DNA of 64,000 nt, from the NCBI GenBank assembly GCA_000310025.1, contig FN648450.1, positions 35,291-99,290 on the forward strand, given 5' to 3'. A program made the translations under genes and the position numbers. Source of the stretch: Ectocarpus siliculosus (taxonomy: Eukaryota > Sar > Phaeophyceae > Ectocarpales > Ectocarpaceae). Under the pieces are notes generated by a model that saw only the letters and a list, made by a program, of their open reading frames with translations, was not told the origin of the DNA and ran no database searches. This document shows positions 1,447 to 53,335 of the stretch, one piece after another (position 1 is the first letter of the stretch; each line of letters opens with the position of its first letter).

Positions 1447-2372
1447 TCACCTCCAGTCCACCGGTCCACCTGCCAGAAACAAAACAACGCCTGTAGTCGA
1501 GCGACGGTCATCTCCATCGCCTGCAAAGTCGGAATCAACATATGCTGTCAGTAGGTTTCCTTGTTCAGCGTCTACCCTGTACGTTATCCCAATGGAGCTC
1601 GTTCCTTTCAGGTACCGGAGCAGTCGCTTCAGTTTGGCCATCGCCTTCGGGCCTGGTTTGGCCATGCTCCTGGTAAGCACCAACACCGTGTGGGCGATCT
1701 CCGGCCTCGATCCCCTGCACAGGTAAAGAACCGAACCCGTGGCTGATCTGAACATCGTGGTGTCCTCTGGCGACAGTGCTTCTTCCTCCACGACACTTAT
1801 CGTACCAACCTCAGCCGGAGTCTTCGTCGGATGCGAGTCGGCCATTCCAAACTTAGCTAGCACCGCCTTGATGTACACCTCCTGCGTCAAGCGAATCGTT
1901 CCTGCTTGAACGTTGCGATCAACGGCCATTCCTAGGATAAACCTCGCATCCCCGAGGTCCACCGTATCAAAGCGTTCCTTCAGCTGTTCGATGATCGTCG
2001 ACACTTGATTCTTTTCGGTTCCAGTGAACAGGATGTCATCCACGTAAACTAGGAGAAATACTTCGCCCGCGTTCAAGATGTACAGACACGGATCCGCCGT
2101 GCTTTGCACGAATCCGATCTCCAGCAAATACACGTGAAATGCCCCGTTCCATCCCTTCGGAGATAGACGTAAACCGTACAGCCATGCCTAGAGTTTCCAG
2201 ACCTGTTTAGCTTGTTGCGACGAGCACTCGAACCCCTTTGGACGTAGATGGGTTCCGCATCTTCGGGAATTCTGGCATGCAGGAAAGCCGTCTTGATGTC
2301 AGCTTGCTTGAGAACTAGACCGTGGCGAGCAGCAACAGCAATCAACAGATGCACAGATTCCATAGACGCCAC
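1447..2372 (-). pseudogene. copia reverse transcriptase domain, frameshifted
   Basis: RT palm motifs are clear: KQADIKTAFLH (first catalytic Asp, near 2290) and LLVYVDDILF (the catalytic Asp pair, near 2050). The two motifs are in different frames. The upstream frame (2372 to about 2240) ends after EPIYVQ, and the continuation lies in the frame of 2133-1447, with an in-frame TAG at 2188-2190. At the N-terminal side, the sequence jumps from the pre-RT segment (DWVDPPQGV) straight to ASMESVHLLIAVAA. The roughly 60-70 residues normally between them are missing, so the RT fingers are deleted. Confidence 0.9.
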
Positions 2373-4717
2373 TGGCGCAGTTGAACACCCTGGGGCGGGT
2401 CAACCCAGTCAAACACGTCATGCTCGTACAGCGACTGTCCTTCGTCGCTCATGCTTGCTTGCCAACGTTTTGAGTCTAGTCCGCTTATCGCTTCGTTATA
2501 GTTGGCTGGGTCGGACGGCATGTAGCCTACCTCACCGGGGCGACCCGTCCCGATGTTTCCGAGTTCGTCGCCGGTCAGCATAGCATGTTCGATCCGCTCG
2601 TACGCCTCCTCCGTCGTATGTAGATTCATCCTATCCGGTGCATTGGAGACCCTGCCGCTCCGACGTAGGTTCGAGTCCTCCATTTGGGGTCCCGATGGCG
2701 TTGGCGATACTTCTTCTTCTTCTGCTGTTTTGTTTTCTTCGTCGTTAGTGTCCACCGTGTCCGGTAAATAGATGGTGGTGGGAGTCATCTCTGAGAACGG
2801 GTCGTACCCGTACTCGGGTTTGACCACGTCGCGAGTCTCTTTCTCACGAAAGGACACCTCAGCGGAGTTGGTGATCTTGAGGGGCTCCGCCGGTTCCCAC
2901 AGCCGGTACGTCCTATTCTTGGTGTTGTACCCCACATGGTACATTTTCTTTGCCCTTGCTGACAGCTTGGTGTCTCGGAATGTCGCTTCTTCATGCTTAA
3001 AAGCTACCGAGCCCCATTCGTGGATGTGCGACATGTCACCTAGCGGTTTTCCCTCCCATACCTCAAGTGGGGCTTTTCCGCCCAGAACCTCCGTAGGTGT
3101 GCGATTCTTGAGGTAGATAGCTGTTTGGAATGCTTCGCCCCACAGATGACCTGGAAGGTGCGGTGCTCCCAGGAGTAGCTTGCGCGCCGTTCCGATGATG
3201 GTGCCAAATCCACGTTCGGCGATGGCGTTCCCCTGCGGGACGTAGGGAGGGCTAGTCTCGAGCTTAATTCCCATGGACTCACACAACGCTTGGAACCTGC
3301 CCTTGAACTCTCCTCCGCCATCGCAGTGCACCTTGCCGATGCAGGTCCCCAAAGGATCCGCTTCGTTCTGGATAAGCTCTTGGAGCGACTCCGCCACCCC
3401 ATCTTTCGTCTTCAGGAGAAAGCCAAACCTCATGCGAGAGAAGTCATCAGTAAACATAACGGCACTCTGGCAACCGCCGGACGACTTGACAGGGTGCGGC
3501 CCCCACACATCGGCGCTCAGAATCTCAAGCCGAGTCGTGGCTCGAGTGCGATTCGACGGGGGGTGGCTACTTTTCTTGCTGTCGCCAACCGCGCAAACCC
3601 CGCAGTCACCTGGTTCGATGTTCCGGTTGAACTTCACTCCGGTTGTCGCTTTGTCCGCCAGCTGCTGTAGAGCACGTGGATGGCAATGACCCATTCTTCG
3701 ATGCCACATATCAGCGTCGACCTTGGTGCGGTACACCTCGGCGGCGTCAAGATTGACGTCGTCGATGATGACGTTCACGACGTACATCCGCCGCACCGCC
3801 GTCGAGATGGGGAAAACATGGTTGCCATGGCGAAGAGCCGGCGGGGTCGACAGCAGATCGCACATCACCCCCTTCTCGGCTAAAGCTCCAACCGACAAGA
3901 TGTTAGGCCCTAGGTTGCGGACCAGCAGAACTTCCACCGCTACCGGTACCACCGTGTTCTGATCATTCCGAACTCCAAATTTTAGCGTGCCTTTCTTGGT
4001 TGCATTTGAGTTACCACAGGACCCGATGATACGCACGGCGCAGTCCACCGGATCACGAACATGTTTGGACAGGCGGGACTCCGTGCAGACCATGTGGCTA
4101 GAAGCGGCAGAATCGATGTATACAGTCGTGTCTACAACAGCGGAGGGATTCACCTGTTCCACTTGAAACACGTTGGTGTACGTGACATACTCTGTTCCAT
4201 CAGACGCCTTCTCCGCCTGAAGGTGAGTCTCTGCCACAAGCGCCGCCTGCACCGGCACATCACCAGCGGCGCACTCATCACACAGCACCGCAGCAAGCAC
4301 ATCCTGCACCTGCACAACTCCAGCAGCGCGCTCCTCTGGCTGCGCCGCACCAGGCACCTTCTGCACCTGCGGGTTGTCGGCGGCGCGGGTTTCCGGCAGC
4401 GCCGCAGCAGGTGCCTCCTGCACCCGCATGTAGTCAGCAGGCTCCGTCTGCACCTGCGAGTCATCCCCGATAACAATTGCGAAGTCCTCCAGCTCGCTGC
4501 TGGGTCCCTCGATCCGCGTAAACCACGCCTGCGTGGTCGACTCCTGCGTGACATGAGCAGCCTGTTCCTTGGCTTCTTCTGCCTCCTGCGAAAGGCGAAG
4601 CGGGCAGTTGTGCCACCCGTGCTCTTTGGAGTTGTGGCAGTACCTGCACAAGCCCTTCGAGTTTTGACCATTATCCCGGCCGCTTCCTCGACCGTTGCCA
4701 CCGGAAGCTTGGCTCAC
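2342..4717 (-). pseudogene. copia Gag C-terminus, protease and integrase
   Basis: This 791-codon frame is the longest intact piece of the polyprotein. It holds, in order, a zinc knuckle CRYC...H...C near residues 24-38 (spacing 2-5-4 instead of the usual 2-4-4), a proline/alanine-rich degenerate-repeat linker, the protease active site YIDSAASSHM, the integrase HHCC zinc-binding region (WHRRMGHCHP...CGVC), and the integrase core with its three acidic residues (LSADVWGP, MFTDDFSRMRF, and the E of GNAIAERGFG). The C-terminal GKAPLEVWEGKP region fits the GKGY-type integrase tail of copia elements. It stops at the RT deletion. Protease and integrase look catalytically intact by motif. Confidence 0.92.
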
Positions 4718-5335
4718 ACAGCAACGCAGTCTTCAATTCGCCGTAGTGACTGTCCGGAAGAGCGTCGTGCAAAGCGTTGAACAGACGCGAGTCGACGACA
4801 ACATCGCCGAGAGAACCCAACTCGGCAGAAATGCGGCGCAACTCCTGGATTGCGCGCGACGGATCAAAATATTCGTCGGCTGCTGTGACGGTGACGGATG
4901 CCAGTTGGGCGTGCAGCTGCTTCATCCGATACGGACCCGCCACCTTGTACTTCTTGTCTAGCGCCACAAAGGCAGCACGACCATCCCCATACTCAGCCTC
5001 TCCAATCGGCCCGTACCTCTGTACCACCTGTGATGCCGCGCGGGAGAACCCTCCTGCGCCGTCGGACGTCGACATAAGAAGCCGCGTGTACAGCTCGCCA
5101 TTTTTCTCTCTGCGAATTTCTCCATCGCAGTGGCATGCGCCGTCCGTGCATCCGGGGTTTCATCTCCCGTCAGATCTTCAGGCGGTTGTTCTTTTCCAGA
5201 CATTATCTTTCCGAGGCCAGCCTTATGCATCAAGACCCGTGTGAGAGTGACCCATCCAGGGAAGCTCGCATCATCACCATCAAAAGGGACAAACCCACGT
5301 TGCATTGGATTCGTGGTGGGAGCTGCGGACGCCAT
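4671..5335 (-). pseudogene. copia Gag N-terminal region, frameshifted
   Basis: The ATG at 5335 starts a copia-type Gag (GFVPFDGDDASFPGW, with the conserved-type F-D-G-x-x-F-x-x-W start). The frame switches near 5100 (after EKFAER) to the frame of 5075-4671, which carries the helical capsid-like part (GPYRMKQLHAQL, IQELRRISAELG). It switches back near 4715 just before the zinc knuckle. Two single-base indels would restore one frame. The sequence between the 5' LTR and this ATG (5336-5376) should hold the primer binding site. I see no canonical initiator-Met tRNA complement there; the first bases after the LTR in element sense are GGTCGTGAGCC. Confidence 0.85.
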
Positions 5336-6744: not shown

Positions 6745-7824
6745 TTGCATTCCCGCCGGCCATTGCTTTTAGTTTTATCGCCTCCGCTCAAGCCGTGGAC
6801 GTCTCTGCTCAAACATTTCGCTTTCGGCCGAATAGCGGCATTGCTCCGCCGCTGTGACCGCGTAGCCGCCCACAAAATCTTCACCGGCATAACCCGTGGC
6901 TATTTTCTCCCTTCCTCCCATCTCCCCGCACCTACCCTGCAGAAGCTGTACGAGTTCGCGAACGCCGACGGCGCTGCGGAGAACATGGTGTTTTTCGATC
7001 AGCGAGAACGGGCAGGCGTTTCAGCGGGTGGAAACAGCCAGCGAGTCAAGACTTTTCGTGGTGTCAACGGACTATTTTTTACGTTGATGGTGTTGCGCAC
7101 GGCGATGCCGCTGGTTGTGGCGTCGACTCTATTCGGTGTGCACGAGAGTACCGGGGGGAGGGCTTTCACGACGTGGCTGAGTTTCCTCTATCGCAGCCTC
7201 CGTCCTGTCATACGGTTGCCTTCGGCAAAAGAGGTCGTCGACCTTCTCCCCAAGAACTTCGACGACTTAGGTTATGAGAATTGCGCGTTGGTGTTGGATG
7301 CCACGGAGATAGAGATTCCCAAGTCGTGGCAAACAAACATGAATTTTGTGTCTTTTTCCACGTACAAGGGCAGGCACACGGCTAAAATCCTTGTAGCGAT
7401 AACCCCCGGGGGTGCCATTTGCTACATCGGACCCGCGTACCCAGGGAGGATGAGTGACGTTGAGGTTGTCCGCAAGTCTGGTCTCGTCGACGCTATGAGG
7501 GAAAACGGTCTATCTAACATGGGTTTCAAAGTGATGGCCGACAAGGGTTTCAACTCCATCTCGCCTTTGCTGATAAGGGAAGGTATTCACTATTGCGCGC
7601 CACCCTTCAAGGTTAGCGGCGAGACTCAGTTCACCAAAGCCGACATGCAGCAAAATTGGGAGGTAGCCAACTTGGGCATTCACGTAGAACGAGCAATTGG
7701 AGCAATGAAGAAGTGGAGTATCGTTGACTCGAAGTCCCATCACAAGCAACTCGATCACCTGGAGATGTGCTTTCATGTAGTGGCTGCTTTGGTAAACTTG
7801 ATGCAACAGCCGTTTCGGAGCTAG
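6745..7824 (+). CDS. HTH + DDE_Tnp_4 transposase, catalytic exon
   Basis: This is a DDE-type transposase core of the DDE_Tnp_4 family (PIF/Harbinger and IS4EU/ISL2EU relatives). N-terminal is a short IFTGITR motif, then a helix-turn-helix region (ASTLFGVHESTGGRAFTTWL) that matches the HTH usually fused to DDE_Tnp_4. All three catalytic acids are visible: Asp in LVLDATEIEI, Asp in VMADKGFN, and Glu in IHVERAIGAMKKW. The family blocks FSTYKGRHTAKILVAI and YPGRMSDVEVV are also present. The frame is open from a TTG at 6745, but the real exon starts at an acceptor somewhere at or after about 6700, possibly the TTTTAG at 6771-6772. The stop is at 7824. The catalytic part looks intact; the gene is disrupted only upstream. 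A THAP finger plus DDE_Tnp_4 suggests the IS4EU/ISL2EU group, but that is inference. Confidence 0.88.
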   Translation: MHSRRPLLLVLSPPLKPWTSLLKHFAFGRIAALLRRCDRVAAHKIFTGITRGYFLPSSHLPAPTLQKLYEFANADGAAENMVFFDQRERAGVSAGGNSQRVKTFRGVNGLFFTLMVLRTAMPLVVASTLFGVHESTGGRAFTTWLSFLYRSLRPVIRLPSAKEVVDLLPKNFDDLGYENCALVLDATEIEIPKSWQTNMNFVSFSTYKGRHTAKILVAITPGGAICYIGPAYPGRMSDVEVVRKSGLVDAMRENGLSNMGFKVMADKGFNSISPLLIREGIHYCAPPFKVSGETQFTKADMQQNWEVANLGIHVERAIGAMKKWSIVDSKSHHKQLDHLEMCFHVVAALVNLMQQPFRS

Positions 7825-25280: not shown

Positions 25281-26256
25281 GTGGATGCCATCGTCTTGGA
25301 CCTCTTCGAAAAGGCGAGGGTTGGCAAGATCGCTGTCAGCCGTGACGTCATCCAAGCGTTCGGCCGCTCCCCGCCAAGGTCACGCTACTGTGTGCGGCGA
25401 CGACTTCAGCCGCCGTGAAGGCGAAGCTCGAGACGTTCATGGCGGGGCAGAAGTGGGCCAAAAACTTCGTGAAGCGCCAGAACCTCCAGAGTAAGGTTCT
25501 TCACGGCGAAGCTGGCAGCGTCAACCCCGAGCTGATCAAAGAGGGCATGAGCGAGATCCGAGAGGCGTGCAAGAAGTACTCGCCTTCCTGGATCTTCAAC
25601 GTCGACGAGACTGGCATCTTGTGGAAGTTGATGCCGAGGCGGACATACCTTTCGCGAAAGGAGAACCGGAAGACCGTGAGGGGTACGAAAGGCATGAAAT
25701 TCAAGGATCGCGTCTCTGCCTTCATGTGCGCCAATGCGGACGGTAGTGCCAAGGTAGACATGTCGATAATCGGCAAAGCGAAGAACCCGCGCTGCTTCAG
25801 GACCAGGGACTGCCCTCTCAAGTACTTCTCGCAGGCCAATGCGTGGTCGGACTCCGTGACGTTCCTCAAGTGGTGGAAACAGGTCTTTCTACCGTTCATC
25901 AGGCGCCACACTCACCTCCCTGTGCTTTTGCTCATGGCCGGCTGCGCGTCGCACGCGGAGCTGGTGGATGACCGGGGGCAGGTGACGGTGATGACATACC
26001 CGCCCAACTGCACTAGCGTACATCAGCCCATGGACATGGGCATCATCGCGGCGACCAAGGTGATCTACAGGAGGGAGCTGCTCAGCGTCAAGGTGTCCAC
26101 CATGCTCGTGGCTGAGACACTGCGCGCCCAGGCTAAGGAGCGCAAGATGACTAGCGGGACCATGGGACTGGCGGAGGGACACCACCCCCATGTGCTGGAC
26201 GCGGCGGATCTCCTCAAGCTTGCATGGGGACAGGTCACCCAGAAGACCATTGCCAG
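25281..26256 (+). pseudogene. Pogo transposase exon 2: Tc5-type HTH and DDE core, second Asp lost
   Basis: The exon opens with VDAIVLDLFEKARVGKIAVS, the second helix-turn-helix domain of pogo transposases. A one-base shift occurs in a run of four Cs at 25369-25372; one more C would restore the frame. Then follow KWAKNFVKRQNL and the DDE core. First Asp: WIFNVDETGIL. At the second catalytic site the sequence is LLLMAGCASH, where the family has Asp-Asn before the Cys/His segment; Ala (GCC) stands at the Asp position. Third Asp: PPNCTSVHQPMDMGII. The missing Asp should abolish transposition. The donor is GTGTGT at 26257, phase 2. Confidence 0.85.
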
Positions 26257-26496
26257 GTGTGTTCAAAACTTCAGCTTCACTCACACATGTACCCACCGCA
26301 TGATCTCCCGCGTTGCTGGATATCGCATGCACGAATTGTAGTTTGAACTGTATCCGAAATGATTTCCTGCTGTGCCTTTCGGCACTCGATATCTATTTCT
26401 TTTTAACCCTAATTTTGGACTGTTTAGCCCAACACTGATGCTTTGCACCGCCCTACCCTGCCTTTTTTTTCTTGTTCATGACCCCACACCACGTAG
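26257..26496 (+). other. Intron 2 of pogo transposase
   Basis: Donor GTGTGT, acceptor CACGTAG. The splice joins AG|G to give TIARCWVKAKTLP, the expected motif after the DDE core. Confidence 0.75.
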
Positions 26497-34650: not shown

Positions 34651-36369
34651 AAACGCATCAACTCGGTTTCGTTTTGCTCTGTTGCTTGTTGTGAAAGGGA
34701 GCGCTTGCACACTCGCAGATGGCGATTGAATCGAGGTCACGCCTGGGCAGGGCGGCAGGACGCGGGCGGACCGGTGCGTGGGGATCGTGGCCGGCAACGC
34801 TAGGTGTTTCCTTTCAGAAGCCATGACGGCGGATATGTCCGCTGGGTGCCCCACGCCGCGACCACGCCGCGACCGTCTTCATGGGAGCCAGGGCTTACGC
34901 CCGCTCGGGGAGCAGCAAGGCGCACGTGCCGTGCACGGTCTTCTCCGTGGACCGCAGACCGCGGCCCAGGGGCGGCGGTGGAATCAAAAGGATGTTATTG
35001 AAGGGGTCGCCGAGAGCTGAGTGAATTAAAACACACGGCCGAATGAGGGCGGCCCGACGGCATGGCAACAAGGGCTGCAGCGAGATTTAAGGCACAAGCG
35101 AATTCAGACCTGATGGACGACCTCATCGGGTCCTCAATCCCGGAGCGGGGCAGCTGGTCGATGCGGCGGCGGAGTGTAGGAAGCCACCCGTATCACCGCC
35201 GGGTGCCGATTATTCCTGCCGTCGTCACGCCGGAGTGGTCGGGGTTCTCCTAGTGCATCGCATCAGGCGATCCAAGAATCGGATGAGGTTAACGACCCAT
35301 GATCGGGATATAGAGCAGACGGCGGAGCAGTTGCTCTGGTGGTGGCGTCGTTGTCATGTTGTGCAACGTTGCCCGATGACGCGCCGTTAACATCCTGTCT
35401 TAGTTAAAGGTTGTGCAGTGCAAGTTATGAAGTATGCCCAAGCCCGCGGAGCTTCGAGGCAAATAGTTACGAAATAGGGGTGAATCCCAGAAACTAACGC
35501 GCGCTGCACCATTTAGCTAAGGATTTGGGAATTTGCTGTATATGGCTGTTGGGGGCAACACATTGGAACGAGTATCCCGAAGGGCGAGAAGATGAAGTCA
35601 GAGGAATGTGTAGGAGCCGCCCACAGTAGAGGACTCGCAAGGGGTGTCCCGTTCGGTACGACAAAGCGAGTCGGGAGGCAATCGGGGGAAAGCACTGTGT
35701 GCGGTAGGTAGGCAGTAACAGGAGCTAATCCCACTGCACGAGCAGTGTCATGATGACCTCGATGTTGGCGAAGAAAATGGTAGGGTACCATGTTAGGGAC
35801 TTGGTCATCTGAGACTACTGTGTGCAGTAAGATTGGTTCCCTCCACCGCAGGAGAGGGCACCCTCAGTTGCTGTTTGGAGGGAAGAGAGAGACAGTCTTT
35901 ATTGGGAGAGAGGCAGAGGCACGATAGAAAGGCCACAGAAACGTGTCTGCGGGAAATGTGCTCTCTGCCAGTTTGGTATCTCTCTCTTCCCTCGGGCGGT
36001 AGAAAATATTAATAAATGCAATTCGAAAGAAAACAATAAAGTGGCGGGAATTTGGGCCCCACATGCCCCTCAGTGTTATCCTCATGCTTCGTGAATGGTC
36101 GCTGGTCTGCTGCAGGTGGTATCATGGAGGATAGGCGCCAATCGATGGGCGCTGACGACATTAGAAAACACCTTCGACAGGTCCGACCCAGCGGGTGTTA
36201 GCTCAAAGTGCGTCGCGTAGAGCATGTGCTGGCGCTGGGTTATAATACCATCGAAGCCTTCGGTGAGTCAATAAAACGAAAGCAGTGCTCAGGGAACAGA
36301 TTGCCGCCCAGGGCAAAGATGCCGAAGGTGACCGCGAGTCAAATGGCGGAGGAGGACCGCCGCCTACAG
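34651..36369. other. No gene recognised
   Basis: Some GC-rich open frames (34778-35020, 35062-35253) have arginine-rich random composition. The 35500-36100 part is non-coding. An AG-rich tract lies near 35880-35925. Confidence 0.4.
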
Positions 36370-47272: not shown

Positions 47273-47510
47273 TTTATTTTGTTTTCTTTCGAATTGCTTC
47301 ATTATTTCTTCGGTTTCTAGGCTACGTGTTGGGGAGAGAGACGCACGAAACGCTCATCGTCTCTCCGGCCGCGTTAGCTGCAAAGGCCGGCGTCAACTCT
47401 TACAAATCCATCTCTCTCCCCACAAATACTAGCCGGGGGACTACGACTGCAAACGCAGGAGTCCCAAAACTGACCAAGTCCTCAAATGGTACACACCATT
47501 CTACAACACC
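47273..47510 (-). repeat. Split direct repeat b2 (3' terminal)
   Basis: 238 bp, apparently identical to 47841-48078 without any gap. Outer end TTTATTTTGTTTTC on the plus strand marks the 3' end of the element. Identity implies recent activity. Confidence 0.92.
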
Positions 47511-47578
47511 TGACTAGATACCGAATATTCCCGAACTTATGCCCCCACCTTCGAAAGAAAAGGGATGGGAGGGCGGGA

Positions 47579-47840
47579 TTTTCTAAACTGCCGCCGCTAC
47601 TGCGTTAGGCGGCTGCTGCTGTCCTTCCGTTGCTTCACGCGCTCTGTAGCTGTCACACGTTACCCGACTTTGCTACAGCCCCTGCGTGGACTCGATCACG
47701 GAATGCACCCCCAACTATAGACTAATAATTCCAAACACCGTGACCCTGGGTTTCCGGTAGAAAGTGAAGCCAAATTCTAATTCGACTGTTACAAAATATA
47801 CACCAGTTTATTCTATCTGCTTCGACGAACAAACCTTCCT
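47579..47840 (-). repeat. Split direct repeat a2
   Basis: Matches 53067-53335 except for a 4-bp indel (TTAG), a 1-bp indel and a few substitutions. It directly abuts b1 at 47841, and the shared TTT makes the boundary ambiguous by three bases. Confidence 0.92.
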
Positions 47841-48078
47841 TTTATTTTGTTTTCTTTCGAATTGCTTCATTATTTCTTCGGTTTCTAGGCTACGTGTTGG
47901 GGAGAGAGACGCACGAAACGCTCATCGTCTCTCCGGCCGCGTTAGCTGCAAAGGCCGGCGTCAACTCTTACAAATCCATCTCTCTCCCCACAAATACTAG
48001 CCGGGGGACTACGACTGCAAACGCAGGAGTCCCAAAACTGACCAAGTCCTCAAATGGTACACACCATTCTACAACACC
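47841..48078 (-). repeat. Split direct repeat b1
   Basis: Identical to 47273-47510, located 42 bp beyond the stop of the recombinase gene. Confidence 0.92.
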
Positions 48079-48119
48079 CACATCGAGGTCAGTTTCTGGA
48101 CGACTACCGAATAAGTCAA

Positions 48120-49367
48120 CTATCCGTTTCCCCAGACGGTCCCCTCCCCCGGCTGTCTCGATACGATCCTACTGCCGTCTGTAAGTTTCCGTGACACTCG
48201 CCGCGAATCCTCTACATTGTTTCGCGCGTACGGCTTGTATGCATCCGACCTCCACTTCCCTTCTCTCTGAATCACTCGTTCTGCGATGTCTCCGCCCGAT
48301 GCAAGAGCCGTCGCGCCTCCAATTCGCAACGAGTGCAACGCGTACTCCTGGGGGTTACGCCCCGACTTCGTTACCACTTCTCTGACTGCACGGAGGGCAG
48401 CAGTATACCTCACTACTCTCACTGCTCTTCCACTACGGTACGAAGCCAACGGTGCGGAGTCAGGCAACGTCGCATGACACGATAACAGCTCCACCACAAG
48501 AGCCACCGCGCCGCCGCGTGCTCTCACACCTGACTGCGGTCCGGTGACTTCGTCTCGCGTACGAACCCGTATGTTTCCTTTCTGCTCTTGATCGGCCTTG
48601 TGCCCTCTAAACCTCATCTCGACACGGTCTGCTCTACGATAGTGACTAAAGATTAATTGCGTCTCGCCAGCAAACAATGCTACGTCCGCCCTCGTAAGAC
48701 AGTGTGCCTCATGCACCCTGCCCGCATCATTCGCGAACACCTCATCAGACCGTGTGATAAAGAGATAGGACAGGCACAGACACAGCCACATCACTCTGCC
48801 CCCTTCCCCCCAGTTCTGGCTTGCGCTTTCCCCGTCCAGCAGCATACGCCAAGACACAGGCAGGCGCACACGGCGTACCGTCTCCATAGCCACGTGGTTC
48901 CTCGCAATCCCCCTTAGCGCACATTTCAACATCGGAGACGACAAGTCTAGCTCGACAGAAGCTTCCAGCCTATGAAAATGTTGTACAGCCGTGAGTTTTC
49001 CGGATATTGTACTCGCTAGATTACTCTCAGCCTCGAAATACCAGGCTACCAAGTCTATCAACTCCCACACATGAAGGTCCCTGGCACGTTGCCCTAGGAA
49101 CTTGGGCTTCTCCGTCAGCCTCCGAAACGTGCACCAAGAGTTGAAGCCTGACGTGTAAGTCCTTCTAGACGAAGACGCAACTGAGTGCTCGACGAGCTGC
49201 ATGCCAAGACGTCGGTAACAAAGTCCCGTCCTGCCTGTCCCAGGTCCTGAACCTGCTGATAGCCCTGGAGCCAACCTCGGGTTGACCGGCGTGCTGCCGT
49301 TCGATTTAGCCGCAGGTGCGCTGCCATCCGAGGTAGGCCCCCCCGCCACGCGGGAGAGCCCGCACCC
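48120..49367 (-). CDS. Tyrosine recombinase (DIRS/Ngaro/PAT type)
   Basis: A site-specific recombinase that integrates and excises DNA through a covalent 3'-phosphotyrosine. The N-terminal half is a helical SAM-like DNA-binding domain (SSSRRTYTSGFNSWCTFRR, ISGKLTAVQHFHRLEA). Catalytic residues can be followed: first Arg in YLFITRSDEVF, H-x-x-R in YALHSLRIGGAT, Trp in REGKWRSDA, and the nucleophilic Tyr in YKPYARNN. The order R...HxxR...W...Y is complete, so it could be active. The reading frame is the same as that of the upstream gag-like ORF, with only the TAG at 49368-49370 between, and no ATG exists before GMQLVEH. Expression by stop-codon readthrough, or from a spliced mRNA, is therefore plausible. 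Stop at 48120. Confidence 0.9.
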   Translation of the reverse strand, partial: GCGLSRVAGGPTSDGSAPAAKSNGSTPVNPRLAPGLSAGSGPGTGRTGLCYRRLGMQLVEHSVASSSRRTYTSGFNSWCTFRRLTEKPKFLGQRARDLHVWELIDLVAWYFEAESNLASTISGKLTAVQHFHRLEASVELDLSSPMLKCALRGIARNHVAMETVRRVRLPVSWRMLLDGESASQNWGEGGRVMWLCLCLSYLFITRSDEVFANDAGRVHEAHCLTRADVALFAGETQLIFSHYRRADRVEMRFRGHKADQEQKGNIRVRTRDEVTGPQSGVRARGGAVALVVELLSCHATLPDSAPLASYRSGRAVRVVRYTAALRAVREVVTKSGRNPQEYALHSLRIGGATALASGGDIAERVIQREGKWRSDAYKPYARNNVEDSRRVSRKLTDGSRIVSRQPGEGTVWGNG

Positions 49368-50411
49368 CTATTTGTCTTTCCCGTGGGTGAAGAAGTCAGC
49401 GGCCTTGGGTCTCGCGCCGCCCTCGCCAGCGGCGTGCGCCTCTCCTCCGCGCCCTCCCCCGTTGCCGTGGCCAACGCCGCGCGCGCCGGTTGCCGGAGTT
49501 TCGGACGCTCCGCGCCTAGCGTGGGAAGGGTTCTGGGCGTGGATGTATGGGCAGTTACGATCATGGCAACCGGACCACGAGTTGAAGGCGAAGCAGTAAC
49601 CACGCGATCTTCCGGAAGTGGTCCCCCGGGCTCGCTTGGACGGCGATAGGAGCTGTTCTCCTGCCCGTATCTGAGGCTGGTAGAAGGCGGCGGCGCCGAC
49701 CCCGCCCATGGCGATGAAGCCAGTAATCCTCTTCCACTCGATGGTTACCACGGGCGGAAAATCCTCGATGACAGTCGGCGGCGCAGAGATCGTTGTCTTG
49801 AAACTGATGGCGCCGTCAACCCACCGCGATGCGAACAGGATTAGATCGTCGTGGATGAATCCCGCGAACCGGAGTTTGTTCGCGGGATTTCGCATCTCGC
49901 CGCGGTTTTCACGACAGTGCTCGGTGACCATCGCCAAGCCGACGTTGAGGGACTCCTCGAGGATGCCCACGCGCTGGAGACTCTCAGAATCGGCAATGCC
50001 TGTTTTGAGCAACGCCGATATGGTCGTGATGAGGATCGAGAGCGACTCTTCCAACGGAACCTCGGCGTTAGGCGTGTCAGATCCCGAACGGTAGTCTTCG
50101 ACCCGGAAGTTTGAGAGCGTGTCGAGCGATGCCGCCACTTTCTCTGTCACCAGGACGCCTTTGCGAAGCAAAAATTGCCACTCCATCTGCGACAGTTTTG
50201 AAACTGCCGGAGGCCGCCCCAGGATGAGCCACGCTTTTACCCGGCGGAGGTCCCCCCACGTCCGCGCTCTATCCTTTGCCGTAGCCTTAGCCGCCTCGGC
50301 GCTGGGTGTAGCGGGGGCCCGGTGTCGAAGGTGTCGCCGCCCGACCTCGCCCTGCTTGCCCAGCCGCTGCCCTGCCGCTCCGCGTGGAGGCCCGTGTCGG
50401 CATCTTGTCAC
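49368..50411 (-). CDS. Gag-like protein with C-terminal zinc finger
   Basis: 347 codons from ATG 50411 to TAG 49368. The central part is helical (EESLSILITTISALLKTG, RVGILEESLNVGLAMV), then FAGFIHDDLILFASRWVDG. Near the C terminus is a CCCH-type finger, YCFAFNSWSGCHDRNCPYIH (C-x8-C-x4-C-x3-H), followed by a Gly/Ala-rich tail. The finger in this position matches Gag-like proteins of DIRS-order retroelements. It would bind element RNA or DNA. No RT motifs (YxDD or YVDD) were seen in any frame between this gene and either repeat. Confidence 0.7.
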   Translation of the reverse strand: MTRCRHGPPRGAAGQRLGKQGEVGRRHLRHRAPATPSAEAAKATAKDRARTWGDLRRVKAWLILGRPPAVSKLSQMEWQFLLRKGVLVTEKVAASLDTLSNFRVEDYRSGSDTPNAEVPLEESLSILITTISALLKTGIADSESLQRVGILEESLNVGLAMVTEHCRENRGEMRNPANKLRFAGFIHDDLILFASRWVDGAISFKTTISAPPTVIEDFPPVVTIEWKRITGFIAMGGVGAAAFYQPQIRAGEQLLSPSKRARGTTSGRSRGYCFAFNSWSGCHDRNCPYIHAQNPSHARRGASETPATGARGVGHGNGGGRGGEAHAAGEGGARPKAADFFTHGKDK

Positions 50412-50789
50412 GGTTGGAGTCGTATAAGCAGCGAACCGGCGGCAGGCGGCGGGCGAGCGTCAGGGCGGCGTTGCGGGAACACTTATTTTCCTCTTCGTCG
50501 TGGGCATAGTCGATCGCGCGCCTGGATCTGCAGTTAGAATGGTCTACAAATCCTATCTTCGGGCGAAACTATCTGACGAGGGTTTTCGTCGGGCCCAGAA
50601 CGACGCGTTGTTATATCGCGAGCTCGCGTTAGTTCGTTCTCGACGCCTGTGGATTGAATGGAGTGATTATTGCTGCTGACGCTACGGTCACCGGACGTCA
50701 ACCAATCCCGAATATTTCTCTCTTTGGAACACTAGCGATGGTTTCTTTTTTTTATATATATATTTTTTCTTGGATTCGGTGAACCCCGG
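50412..50789 (-). other. Upstream region of gag-like gene
   Basis: About 380 bp between the gag-like start and the hairpin array, with a T-rich stretch at 50748-50770. Nothing coding. Confidence 0.4.
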
Positions 50790-51950
50790 TTCGCCATCGG
50801 CACGGGTGCGTCCACTCATTGGCGCGTCCCGTGCTGATACGTGTTTTTTTTATTTATTTTTCTTCGATGCGTTGGATACGGTGAACTCCACTTGCCAACA
50901 GCGCGGGTGCTTCCACTCATTGGCGCGTCCCTCGCTGAAACTGACAACACATATGCAGCACGGGTGCTTCCACTCATTGGCGCGTCCCGTGCTGATACGT
51001 GTTTTTTTTATTTATTTTTTTTCGATGCGTTGGATACGGTGAAACTCCACTTGCGAACAGCGCGGGTGCTTCCACTCATTGGCGCGTCCCTCGCTGAAAC
51101 TGACAACACATATGCAGCACGGGTGCTTCCACTCATTGGCGCGACCCGTACCGATACTTGTACGCAGCGCGGGTGCTTCCACTCGTTGGCGCGTCCCTTG
51201 CTGAAACTGACAACACATATGAGTACGGGTGCTTCCACTCATTGGCGCGTCCCGTACTGATACGTGTATGACTTCGTTTTCGATGCGTGGAGATCGGTTA
51301 ATTCTACTCGCCAACAGCACGGGCGCTTCCAGTCATTGGCGCGTCCCGTGCTGATACGTGTACGGCGTTTTGTTCTTTCTTTTTGAGATCGGTTAACTCT
51401 ACTCGCCAACAGCACTCATTGGCGCGTCCCTTGCTGAACTGACAACACATATGCAGCACGGGTGCTTCCACTCATTGGCGCGTCCCGTACTGATACGTGT
51501 ACGACTTCGTTTTCGATGCGTGGAGATCGGTTAATTCTACTCGCCAACAGCACGGGTGCGTCCAGTCATTGGCGCGTCCCGTGCTGATACGTGTACGGCG
51601 TTTTGTTCTTTCTTTTTGAGATCGGTTAACTCTACTCGCCAACAGCACGAGTGCTTCCACTCATTGGCGCGTCCCGTGCTGAGGCTGACATCACATATGC
51701 AGCACGGGTGCTTCCACTCATTGGCGCGTCCCGTACTGATGCATGATTTGTGGTATTTTTCTACCGCTGCGTTGAATTCGGTTAACTCTACTCGCCAACA
51801 GCGCGGGTGCTTCCACTCATTGGCGCATCCCGTGCTGATACATGTATGACTTCGTGTTTCGTTGCGTTGCGATCGGTTAACTTCCACTTGCCAACAGCAC
51901 GGACGAGTGCTTCCACTAGTGGCGCGTCCCGTGCTGGTGCGTGTCCGTGT
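50790..51950. repeat. Array of about 15 hairpin-forming repeats
   Basis: The core CACTCATTGGCGCG(T)CCC recurs about 15 times between 50815 and 51925. It is flanked by complementary arms such as CAGCACGGG...CCCGTGCTG that could pair into a 9-bp stem over a loop of about 20 bases. Units alternate short (50-57 bp) and long (95-103 bp), the long ones adding a T-rich segment. Several copies show paired changes (CACGGG/CCCGTG to TACGGG/CCCGTA; arm start AGCA/TGCT to AGCG/CGCT), which suggests that the stem matters. Confidence 0.85.
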
Positions 51951-53066
51951 TTTTTTTTTTTTTCTCATTGAGATCACTTCCGCATAGACAATCCTACGGC
52001 AGGTTGACGAGTTTTTGGCATGCATCAATTGCTGTCCGGGCGTTTTTGGAACGGTCGCTTAATCGTCGATGGATGTGACGTATTCTTATAAAAGGTTTGT
52101 GTCACGGCGGTCGTACATTGGACGTGATGCCCCTCGACACCGTGGTACACCCGGATGGACCGTTACCTGACGTTCCTCGCGGGTTCGAACCTCGCGTGCC
52201 ACTTTCACCTCCCCCACCCCTTTTTTTTTCTCATCTTCTCTTTCCTTATGCATACAGCACGCAGTTCGCTGTCTCGTTTTTATCTCGTCTTCTTTGTTAT
52301 TCAGTCTTTTTCTTTGAGTCTTTCTCTCGCATGCATGTGGTTTTTGCTTTTATCCGTTCCCGTGAATGCTGTTGAATGCACTTTCCGATTACGTATGCGG
52401 CCGCTTTATATGCCGTGGGACTTGTCGATACCATCAGTGGGGACTTGTCAATACCATCCGTGGAGACGATTGCTTACGTGAGTGAGCATATTATCGTCGA
52501 TTCCTTCAGCTATATGCCCCTCTGTGCGCGGCACAGACAAGATTGTACCGGCAAGTAGCCCTAGTAAGCCGGGGGAAACAGAAAACAAGGCACCTGCCTC
52601 ATGTGCATACTCGTGACAGCATCATGCCCTACTGCCGCGGGTCGATTGGTTATGTCCGATGCCGCAGGGTTCCTCCACCCCATGCAGTACAATGGCTGCT
52701 ATCGTGGCACGTACAGCAACCGCGACAAGTCAGCGTGCGACCATACAACAGGCCCCGCTCTTTCTTTTTGCCGTTGAATTTTTTTTCTTCAGCGAGAGTA
52801 CGTCTCGGTTGGGATGAACCGCATCCCATGTTTGGGAAGGGACCTATCTGAGCGGCGCGGCGAGCGAGACTGCGGTGGCTTGCCGCCGCTTATCTTACTG
52901 CACCCTCCCCCCTCGTGCTAAATGCACGCAGCGGTGAGGTCACAAGAGTAGCGGGACGCGAATAGGAACACGGCCGACACGATGGATGTTGGACACGAGT
53001 ACACACCTTATGGAGAGTCGCGTGCTGGTCGCTTCCCCAATGCTTGCGCCGTGTCCCGTCCCGCCC
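51951..53066. other. 5' leader of the recombinase element, no gene recognised
   Basis: Contains a plus-strand TATAAAAG at about 52087 and several T/C-rich stretches (52200-52330). Also a short tandem GTGGGGACTTGTC/ATACCATC duplication near 52415-52465. No RT or other domain found in six frames. Confidence 0.45.
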
Positions 53067-53335
53067 TTTTCCAAACTGCCGCCGCTACTGCGTTAGTTAG
53101 GCGGCTGCTGCTGTCCTTCCGTTGCTTCACGCGCTCTGTAGCTGTCACACGTTACCCGACTTTGCTACAGCCCCTGCGTGGACTCGATCACGGAATGACA
53201 CCCCCAACTATAGACTAATAATTCCAAACACCGTGACCCTGGGTTTCCGGTAGAAAGTGAAGCCAAATTCTAATTCGACTGTTACAAAATATACACCAGT
53301 TTATTCTATCTGCTTCGACGAACAAACCTTCCTTT
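53067..53335 (-). repeat. Split direct repeat a1 (5' terminal)
   Basis: 269 bp matching 47579-47843. The outer end CCTTT (53331-53335) is the 5' end of the element. The plus-strand flank GTTTCG follows. Confidence 0.92.

Follow-up and report, generated by a model that had tools for sequence, protein, structure and literature searches.

We analysed a 64,000-nucleotide (nt) stretch of the Ectocarpus siliculosus genome (assembly GCA_000310025.1, contig FN648450.1, positions 35,291 to 99,290; hereafter the window), which contains a mobile element with a tyrosine recombinase (YR) gene, split direct repeats and no reverse transcriptase (RT). Here we describe this element, its relatives in the same genome and the route by which RT was probably lost. 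The element, which we also call copy L016, spans 53335 to 47273 in the order A1, 5′ region, gag remnant, YR, B1, A2, B2. An earlier note, made from the letters of this DNA alone, had proposed the repeat order a1-ORFs-b1-a2-b2 (ORF, open reading frame) with b1 and a2 abutting; repeat comparison bears this out, but the element reads on the minus strand. Its features are as follows, with a slash marking the join.

53067..53335, minus strand: A1, left terminal repeat, 5′ end of the element
50789..51964, minus strand: array of diverged tandem repeats (repeat families D1-D5) in the 5′ untranslated region
50321..50322, minus strand: site of a 344-nt gag loss relative to copy L024 and others, not GT...AG
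49368..50459, minus strand: gag remnant, shortened and frame-shifted, open frame of 363 amino acids (aa), UAG stop at 49370-49368
49253..49367, minus strand: leader of the former pol frame, 115 nt, in frame with gag across the UAG
49252..49253, minus strand: RT-loss junction ATCAGCAG/GTTCAGG; element position 4083 is window position 49253, and copy L032 has 2056 nt (GT...AG, RT and RNase H) here
48120..49252, minus strand: YR, with a profile match to Cre (E = 1.5e-7) and a predicted fold matching Cre 1crx (E = 4.2e-7)
47841..48078, minus strand: B1, inner copy of the right repeat
47579..47842, minus strand: A2, inner copy of the left repeat
47273..47510, minus strand: B2, right terminal repeat, 3′ end of the element, where the ...ATAAA end meets host DNA

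The B repeats are identical, as had been claimed, at all 238 of 238 positions (47841-48078 against 47273-47510). A1 (53335-53067) and A2 (47842-47579) are identical over their outer 137 bp and 97.8% identical over 269 positions, with the differences confined to the inward part of the repeat. The boundary between B1 and A2 resembles the outer ends of the element joined together. Other genome copies carry the same repeats in the same order, which speaks against their being unrelated tandem duplications. The 5′ tandem array is also present in most fetched copies (defined below), with a length that varies from copy to copy.

The YR frame is open from 49367 to 48120, leader included. Residues R200, K251, H339, R342 and Y374 (codons starting at 48752, 48599, 48335, 48326 and 48230), which we take to be the catalytic residues, are conserved among 17 aligned YR proteins; R200, K251 and R342 are invariant, with H339 and Y374 present in at least 90%. 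The predicted fold has a mean pLDDT (predicted local distance difference test) score of 70. Pfam and PHROGs returned no family for the window YR or gag, and NCBIfam returned nothing for YR and a single chance-level match for gag; Pfam Phage_integrase was found in 4 of the 17 aligned YR relatives. The gag remnant holds a Cys/His cluster, C-x8-C-x4-C-x3-H (identified by eye), and long gag matches in relatives are 90–95% identical, most with frames of 461–565 aa. The 344-nt step is also seen against most other fetched copies and, because 344 is not a multiple of 3, the window gag is frame-shifted relative to the 542-aa gag of RT-bearing copies L032 and L034. Of the complete YR and Gag-like ORF described earlier, the open YR therefore stands and the gag-like ORF is incomplete, with 344 nt missing relative to L024. 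The reported absence of RT held: searches of the window element and of a set of RT-less copies with the L032 RT segment and its protein left no match below E = 1 for RT or RNase H (RH), and the same queries matched L032 (their source) and L033.

The element has split direct repeats (A1-ORFs-B1A2B2), a YR with R-K-HxxR-Y and, as described below, integration without target-site duplication, all of which are Ngaro features. A further Ngaro feature, RT with RNase H, is absent from the window copy and present in same-family relatives. Because RT/RH is missing, the element is, judged on its sequence, an RT-less, non-autonomous derivative of an Ngaro-type element and not a full member. The Ngaro-type architecture and recent movement put forward in the earlier note are both supported. 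A gag remnant and split repeats set the element apart from Cryptons, which have YR only, no gag and no split repeats.

At least 40 places in the genome, including the window copy, match its 328-bp 3′ end at 100% (40 scored of 396 candidates), and 20 of these were fetched. As they were picked by a perfect 3′-end match, the fetched set over-represents young copies of one subfamily. B1-A2-B2 was present in 18 of the 20; the other two (L010 and L020) are solo A2-B2 copies with clean ends, like solo long terminal repeats (LTRs), whose outer A variants are shared with L011 and L028. Of the 18, 13 have a complete or almost complete A1 (that of L012 stops at position 232 of 269), two have part of it, and in three none was found. 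YR is open at full length in 16 of the 18, open from residue 9 in L013 and shifted in L012. The gag regions differ: L024 lacks 511 nt kept by the window copy and L032, while the window copy lacks the 344 nt kept by L024. L032 and, judging by an identical step in the alignment, L033-L036 have an 84-nt in-frame gag piece that the young RT-less copies examined (L016, L024 and L037) lack; its loss is a possible marker of a single founder. A 1341-aa frame beside a 96% identical YR (C241:79230-80315, L029) was considered as a hidden complete element and rejected, being an assembly gap of N.

Genome searches with YR and gag identified five places (L032-L036) with gag approximately 2.1–2.2 kb upstream of a 94–97% identical YR. 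The earlier note had asked whether full-length relatives contain RT between gag and recombinase, and they do, with the order gag, UAG, pol (RT/RH), YR in all five. Gag is 542 aa in L032 and L034, 564 aa in L033 and broken in L035 and L036; the pol frame is 690 aa in L032, 768 aa in L033 and L036 and broken in L034 and L035; and YR is open (392–393 aa) in all. Each place deviates from the others in the frame or length of one or more of its three genes. As for the repeats, L032, the only one fetched far enough to show A1, has A1, B1 and A2, and B2 was not found there; B1-A2-B2 is present in L033 and L034 and partial in L035 and L036. Pol carries a YVDD motif. Pfam gave only a sub-threshold RVT_1 match for L032 pol (E = 0.018); across a pol alignment, RVT_1 was found in 4 of 10 members (E cut-off 0.01, best E = 2.7e-4) and Peptidase_A17 in one, with weak sensitivity for any methyltransferase domain. 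A pol sequence search against the PDB found no relative; the predicted fold of P0057, a 69%-identical pol homologue, matches Ty3 RT (E = 1e-9). Among the best 64 of 491 candidates in a pol search, seven same-family places were at least 92% identical, one more partial place was 94% identical, and other families were 36–71% identical.

Compared with L032, both L024 and the window copy lack 2056 nt, between ...AGCAG/GTGTGG and CTGGCAG/GTTCAG. The join is identical to the base in all 11 RT-less copies compared that are free of N, as well as in L040 and L041, and L042 has the same join with a local duplication beside it. The RT-less join, with up to two mismatches allowed, occurs at 104 genome places and the uninterrupted RT side at 7, a ratio of approximately 15 to 1, although 104 places are not 104 separate elements (two on C257 are only 57 nt apart); both pattern controls gave 0. 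Among 100 joins listed, 80 were of the GGGCTATC type and 20 of an older GGGCAATC type, each with or without a further mismatch. These genomic copies thus lack a base-exact GT...AG segment of their parent, as would be expected of an SDARE-like spliced retroelement; pieces of gag are missing too, and these are not GT...AG. We also tested whether the gag and 5′ differences stem from another splicing event and rejected this: of six other internal losses (344, 511 and 84 nt, and the long deletions in L012, L013 and L017), none has GT...AG at any exact breakpoint identified.

The boundaries recur in two distant RT-bearing families. C206 (68% RT identity) has a CAG/GTGTGG donor and a TGGCAG/GC acceptor, and C315 (53% RT identity) a CAAG/GTGGGA donor (placed by eye) and a TGGCAG/GA acceptor. 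GT and AG lie at matching positions, in phase 1 and in the YR frame, in all three RT-bearing families read. The leader after the UAG is 115, 40 and 112 nt in the main, C206 and C315 families, in each case 1 modulo 3, and the join continues into the YR frame in all. The unspliced YR frame begins only 34–49 nt before the acceptor in the three families, and its first Met is residue 33, 62 and 57; in C206 and C315 this Met already falls within the conserved beginning of YR. In each of the three families, the stop that precedes the pol leader is a UAG with GG directly after it (TAGGGGTGC, TAGGGGCGC and TAGGGACAC; window 49368-49370 and L032, C206 (L045) and C315 (L047)), a context that suggests stop-codon readthrough; in C206, the gag end itself is in another frame. 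The predicted C206 and C315 joins were used as genome search patterns, and that of C315 gave one match, C183:35900-35928, with 2 mismatches of 29. A gag match ends 151 nt before this join, which is also where a YR match begins. The C183 YR frame is 422 aa; in C315 and in six other copies, which have RT matches as well, it is 398 aa.

A tree of 17 rows, including seven of the young RT-less copies and L042 (kept despite its rearranged left flank), addresses how often RT was lost. The old RT-less copies L031, L040, L041 and L042 (four of the four read) group with the RT-bearing C187 at 100% ultrafast bootstrap, separate from the young RT-less clade, with other RT-bearing copies falling between. 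A single loss of RT is rejected by the approximately unbiased (AU) test with both flanks (p = 0.0005) and with the right flank (p = 0.0002), but not with the 225-nt left flank. One marker of the old type lies 9 nt to the left of the join; another, 26 nt to its right, is present in all four old copies, and young copies have neither. It follows from the tree and the AU tests that at least two losses of RT took place at one and the same base, or that two close template switches moved the join.

The outer repeats also bear on the route of movement. Across the 14 copies having both A1 and A2, seven columns within positions 1-135 are off-majority in both repeats of one copy (L016, L011 or L032) and three are private to one repeat. 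In the inner part of A, several columns are private to one repeat, and two variants are each common to A1 of two copies and absent from their A2. This pattern fits an outer end that would be regenerated from the inner copy in each cycle, with only three informative copies. L024 is inserted in a Copia-like gene (named by eye), and 16 places match the whole 200 nt of its joined flanks at 96–99%; the two empty sites read show no length change, and hence no target duplication for this one insertion. Of 15 insertions, two of them solo copies, 14 have A at position -2 of the 5′ flank and 11 have A at -3. Tabulated 3-bp circular junctions of DIRS1-like elements are similarly AAN-like (for example AAA, AAT and AAG) and without duplication (PMC3266345).

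Retention of YR was considered as a sign of selection, and this is unsupported. The ratio of nonsynonymous to synonymous differences per site (pN/pS) is 0.86 among 16 copies (two of the 18, gapped or shortened, were left out) and 0.85 for L016-L024. The two RT-less copies L016 and L024 differ in YR by 5 synonymous and 13 nonsynonymous changes, compared with 14 and 8 between L024 and the RT-bearing L032 (Fisher p = 0.03, with the pairs chosen afterwards); other pairs blur this contrast (synonymous and nonsynonymous, respectively: L016-L035, 8 and 18; L015-L035, 9 and 12; L032-L034, 4 and 6). YR in the RT-less lineage thus appears to be under no strong selection, and it may be open mainly through the youth of the copies. 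Near-neutrality of YR in RT-less copies argues weakly against self-sufficient movement by their own recombinase.

We consider it quite probable that RT/RH is an optional intron of the parent's genomic RNA, that YR is made from spliced RNA, and that the RT-less elements are retrocopies of spliced RNA that use RT in trans. Unspliced RNA would yield gag and, through readthrough of the UAG, gag-RT/RH, whereas spliced RNA would join the short post-UAG leader in frame to YR, such that YR could be made as a gag (or leader) fusion. The spliced RNA would keep both ends and occasionally be packaged and reverse transcribed by the RT of RT-bearing copies. In the textbook model, the product of reverse transcription is a circle; here, YR would insert the circular product into a short AAN site, with no duplication of the target. 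RT-less loci would then make RNA that is already joined, and would keep spreading with RT supplied from elsewhere. Of the two routes the earlier note had offered, borrowed RT is supported, because RT-bearing relatives with the same kind of A/B repeats and a 94–97% identical YR reside in the same genome.

Several observations weigh against this explanation. No clear tract of pyrimidines is seen by eye at the acceptor, and the Met at residue 33 of the unspliced L032 YR frame makes another start possible there. The genome pattern search with the predicted C206 join found no spliced-type copy, and the C183 structure is deduced from its single pattern match and two protein matches. Four inner A columns are concerted too, all in L032. 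In the main family, a 6-nt microhomology, GCAGGT, lies at the junction, flanking the lost segment, and this invites an ordinary non-autonomous derivative whose RT was deleted (in DNA or by a template jump) at GCAGGT and which is mobilised in trans with no splicing. The other gag and 5′ deletions are not splice-like and must have arisen in some such way. Yet none of those six is GT...AG, the two subfamilies that used the same base do not group as a single RT-less clade, and 526 shared words of at least 6 nt (148 of them at least 7 nt) were available near the segment, of which just 8 contain AGGT. The C315 segment ends, moreover, share only AGG (by eye), yet C183 joins at the matching site. We regard such a deletion as unlikely.

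Similarly unlikely is a single loss of RT whose junction then reached the second subfamily through template switches between RNAs with and without RT, which would be compatible with splicing as the first cause. Co-packaging would permit such switching, and the 225-nt left flank alone, which again counts against repeated loss, does not reject a single loss (AU p = 0.055). Over the 75 nt immediately to the right of the junction, C187 also shares no old-type marker with the old RT-less copies, and the signal on that side is spread over 1.1 kb. If the donor resembled the four old copies, however, the markers 9 nt left and 26 nt right would demand two very close switches, and C183 would be left unexplained, its family being approximately 53% identical in RT. 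The second route of the earlier note was movement as DNA, in which YR would join the outer ends, excise a circle and reinsert it with no RNA step, in a Crypton-like manner. The open YR of 16 of the 18 copies (and of a 17th from residue 9) and the resemblance of B1/A2 to joined ends would suit it. It is not favoured, because the loss of RT more than once at one GT...AG site is best explained by an RNA step, and because the outer A has been homogenised within a copy, unlike two shared variants further in. RT is, besides, available in trans, and the near-neutral YR differences of L016-L024 suggest that YR in cis may be dispensable, although the contrast is weak. We hold movement as DNA to be very improbable.

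Beyond the window copy, the optional-intron explanation leads to a broader proposal, which we think probable but hold less firmly. The whole RT/RH region of these Ngaro-type elements would be a conserved, optionally spliced intron (unspliced gag-pol, spliced gag-YR), with splicing deciding between the copying and the integration enzyme and repeatedly yielding satellites without RT that retain YR, the ends and parts of gag and overrun the elements they came from. If true, this would be a natural counterpart of the intron-loss test for retrotransposition, and splicing would be a concrete, RNA-testable answer to how a frame-shifted YR is expressed. Repeated loss of the GT...AG segment would be evidence, at the genome level, that a split-repeat YR element passes through RNA, and RT-free satellites would gain a simple origin in splicing rather than in random deletion. 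A literature search, with subscription papers, supplements and Ectocarpus transposable-element notes outside its scope, gave, among the matches listed, no report that describes an RT/RH intron, or retrocopies of spliced RNA, for Ngaro or DIRS elements.

Elsewhere in the window, a fragment of another YR (35270-35404, plus strand) matches the Ectocarpus protein P0013 with 76% identity across 41 aa. Long frames at 2342-4732 (minus strand), 6745-7824 (plus strand) and 25346-26341 (plus strand) resemble, by eye, a Copia polyprotein and two DNA transposases.

Ngaro elements belong to the DIRS order, with 15 families in Ectocarpus (PMC12477816) and further examples in Cafeteria (PMC8547959). The window element shares with them the A1-ORFs-B1A2B2 split direct repeats and YR, and its relatives in the same genome also have gag and RT/RH. 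It differs in that the window copy and approximately 100 other places are without RT/RH, and in that its relatives seem to express YR by splicing; in a survey of fungal Ngaro elements, the YR frame may be the same as, or shifted from, that of RT/RH (PMC3783388). DIRS1-like elements resemble it in YR integration at a 3-bp circular junction without duplication (here AAN), but have inverted terminal repeats and a methyltransferase domain (PMC3266345). SIRE, the counterpart of VIPER in Trypanosoma cruzi, is likewise a non-autonomous short form of a split-repeat YR element (PMC6681497). As described there, SIRE keeps mainly the ends, for which the solo A2-B2 copies L010 and L020 offer a comparison, whereas here a gag remnant, leader and YR are kept. 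In BARE of barley, splicing yields a subgenomic RNA for one gene product, Gag, and a parasitic subfamily uses parental particles (PMC3735527). BARE is an LTR element in which splicing serves Gag, and the abstract of that study reports no genomic copies of the spliced RNA. The nearest known case appears to be the SDARE of murine leukaemia virus, in which genomic RNA that has undergone alternative splicing is packaged and, after reverse transcription, integrates as a defective, parent-dependent element (PMC2925334). The likeness would lie in a retrocopy of spliced RNA that depends on its parent; the difference is that SDARE derives from a retrovirus with an integrase, whereas here the element has YR and split repeats, RT-less places exceed RT-bearing ones by approximately 15 to 1, and the lost piece is RT itself.

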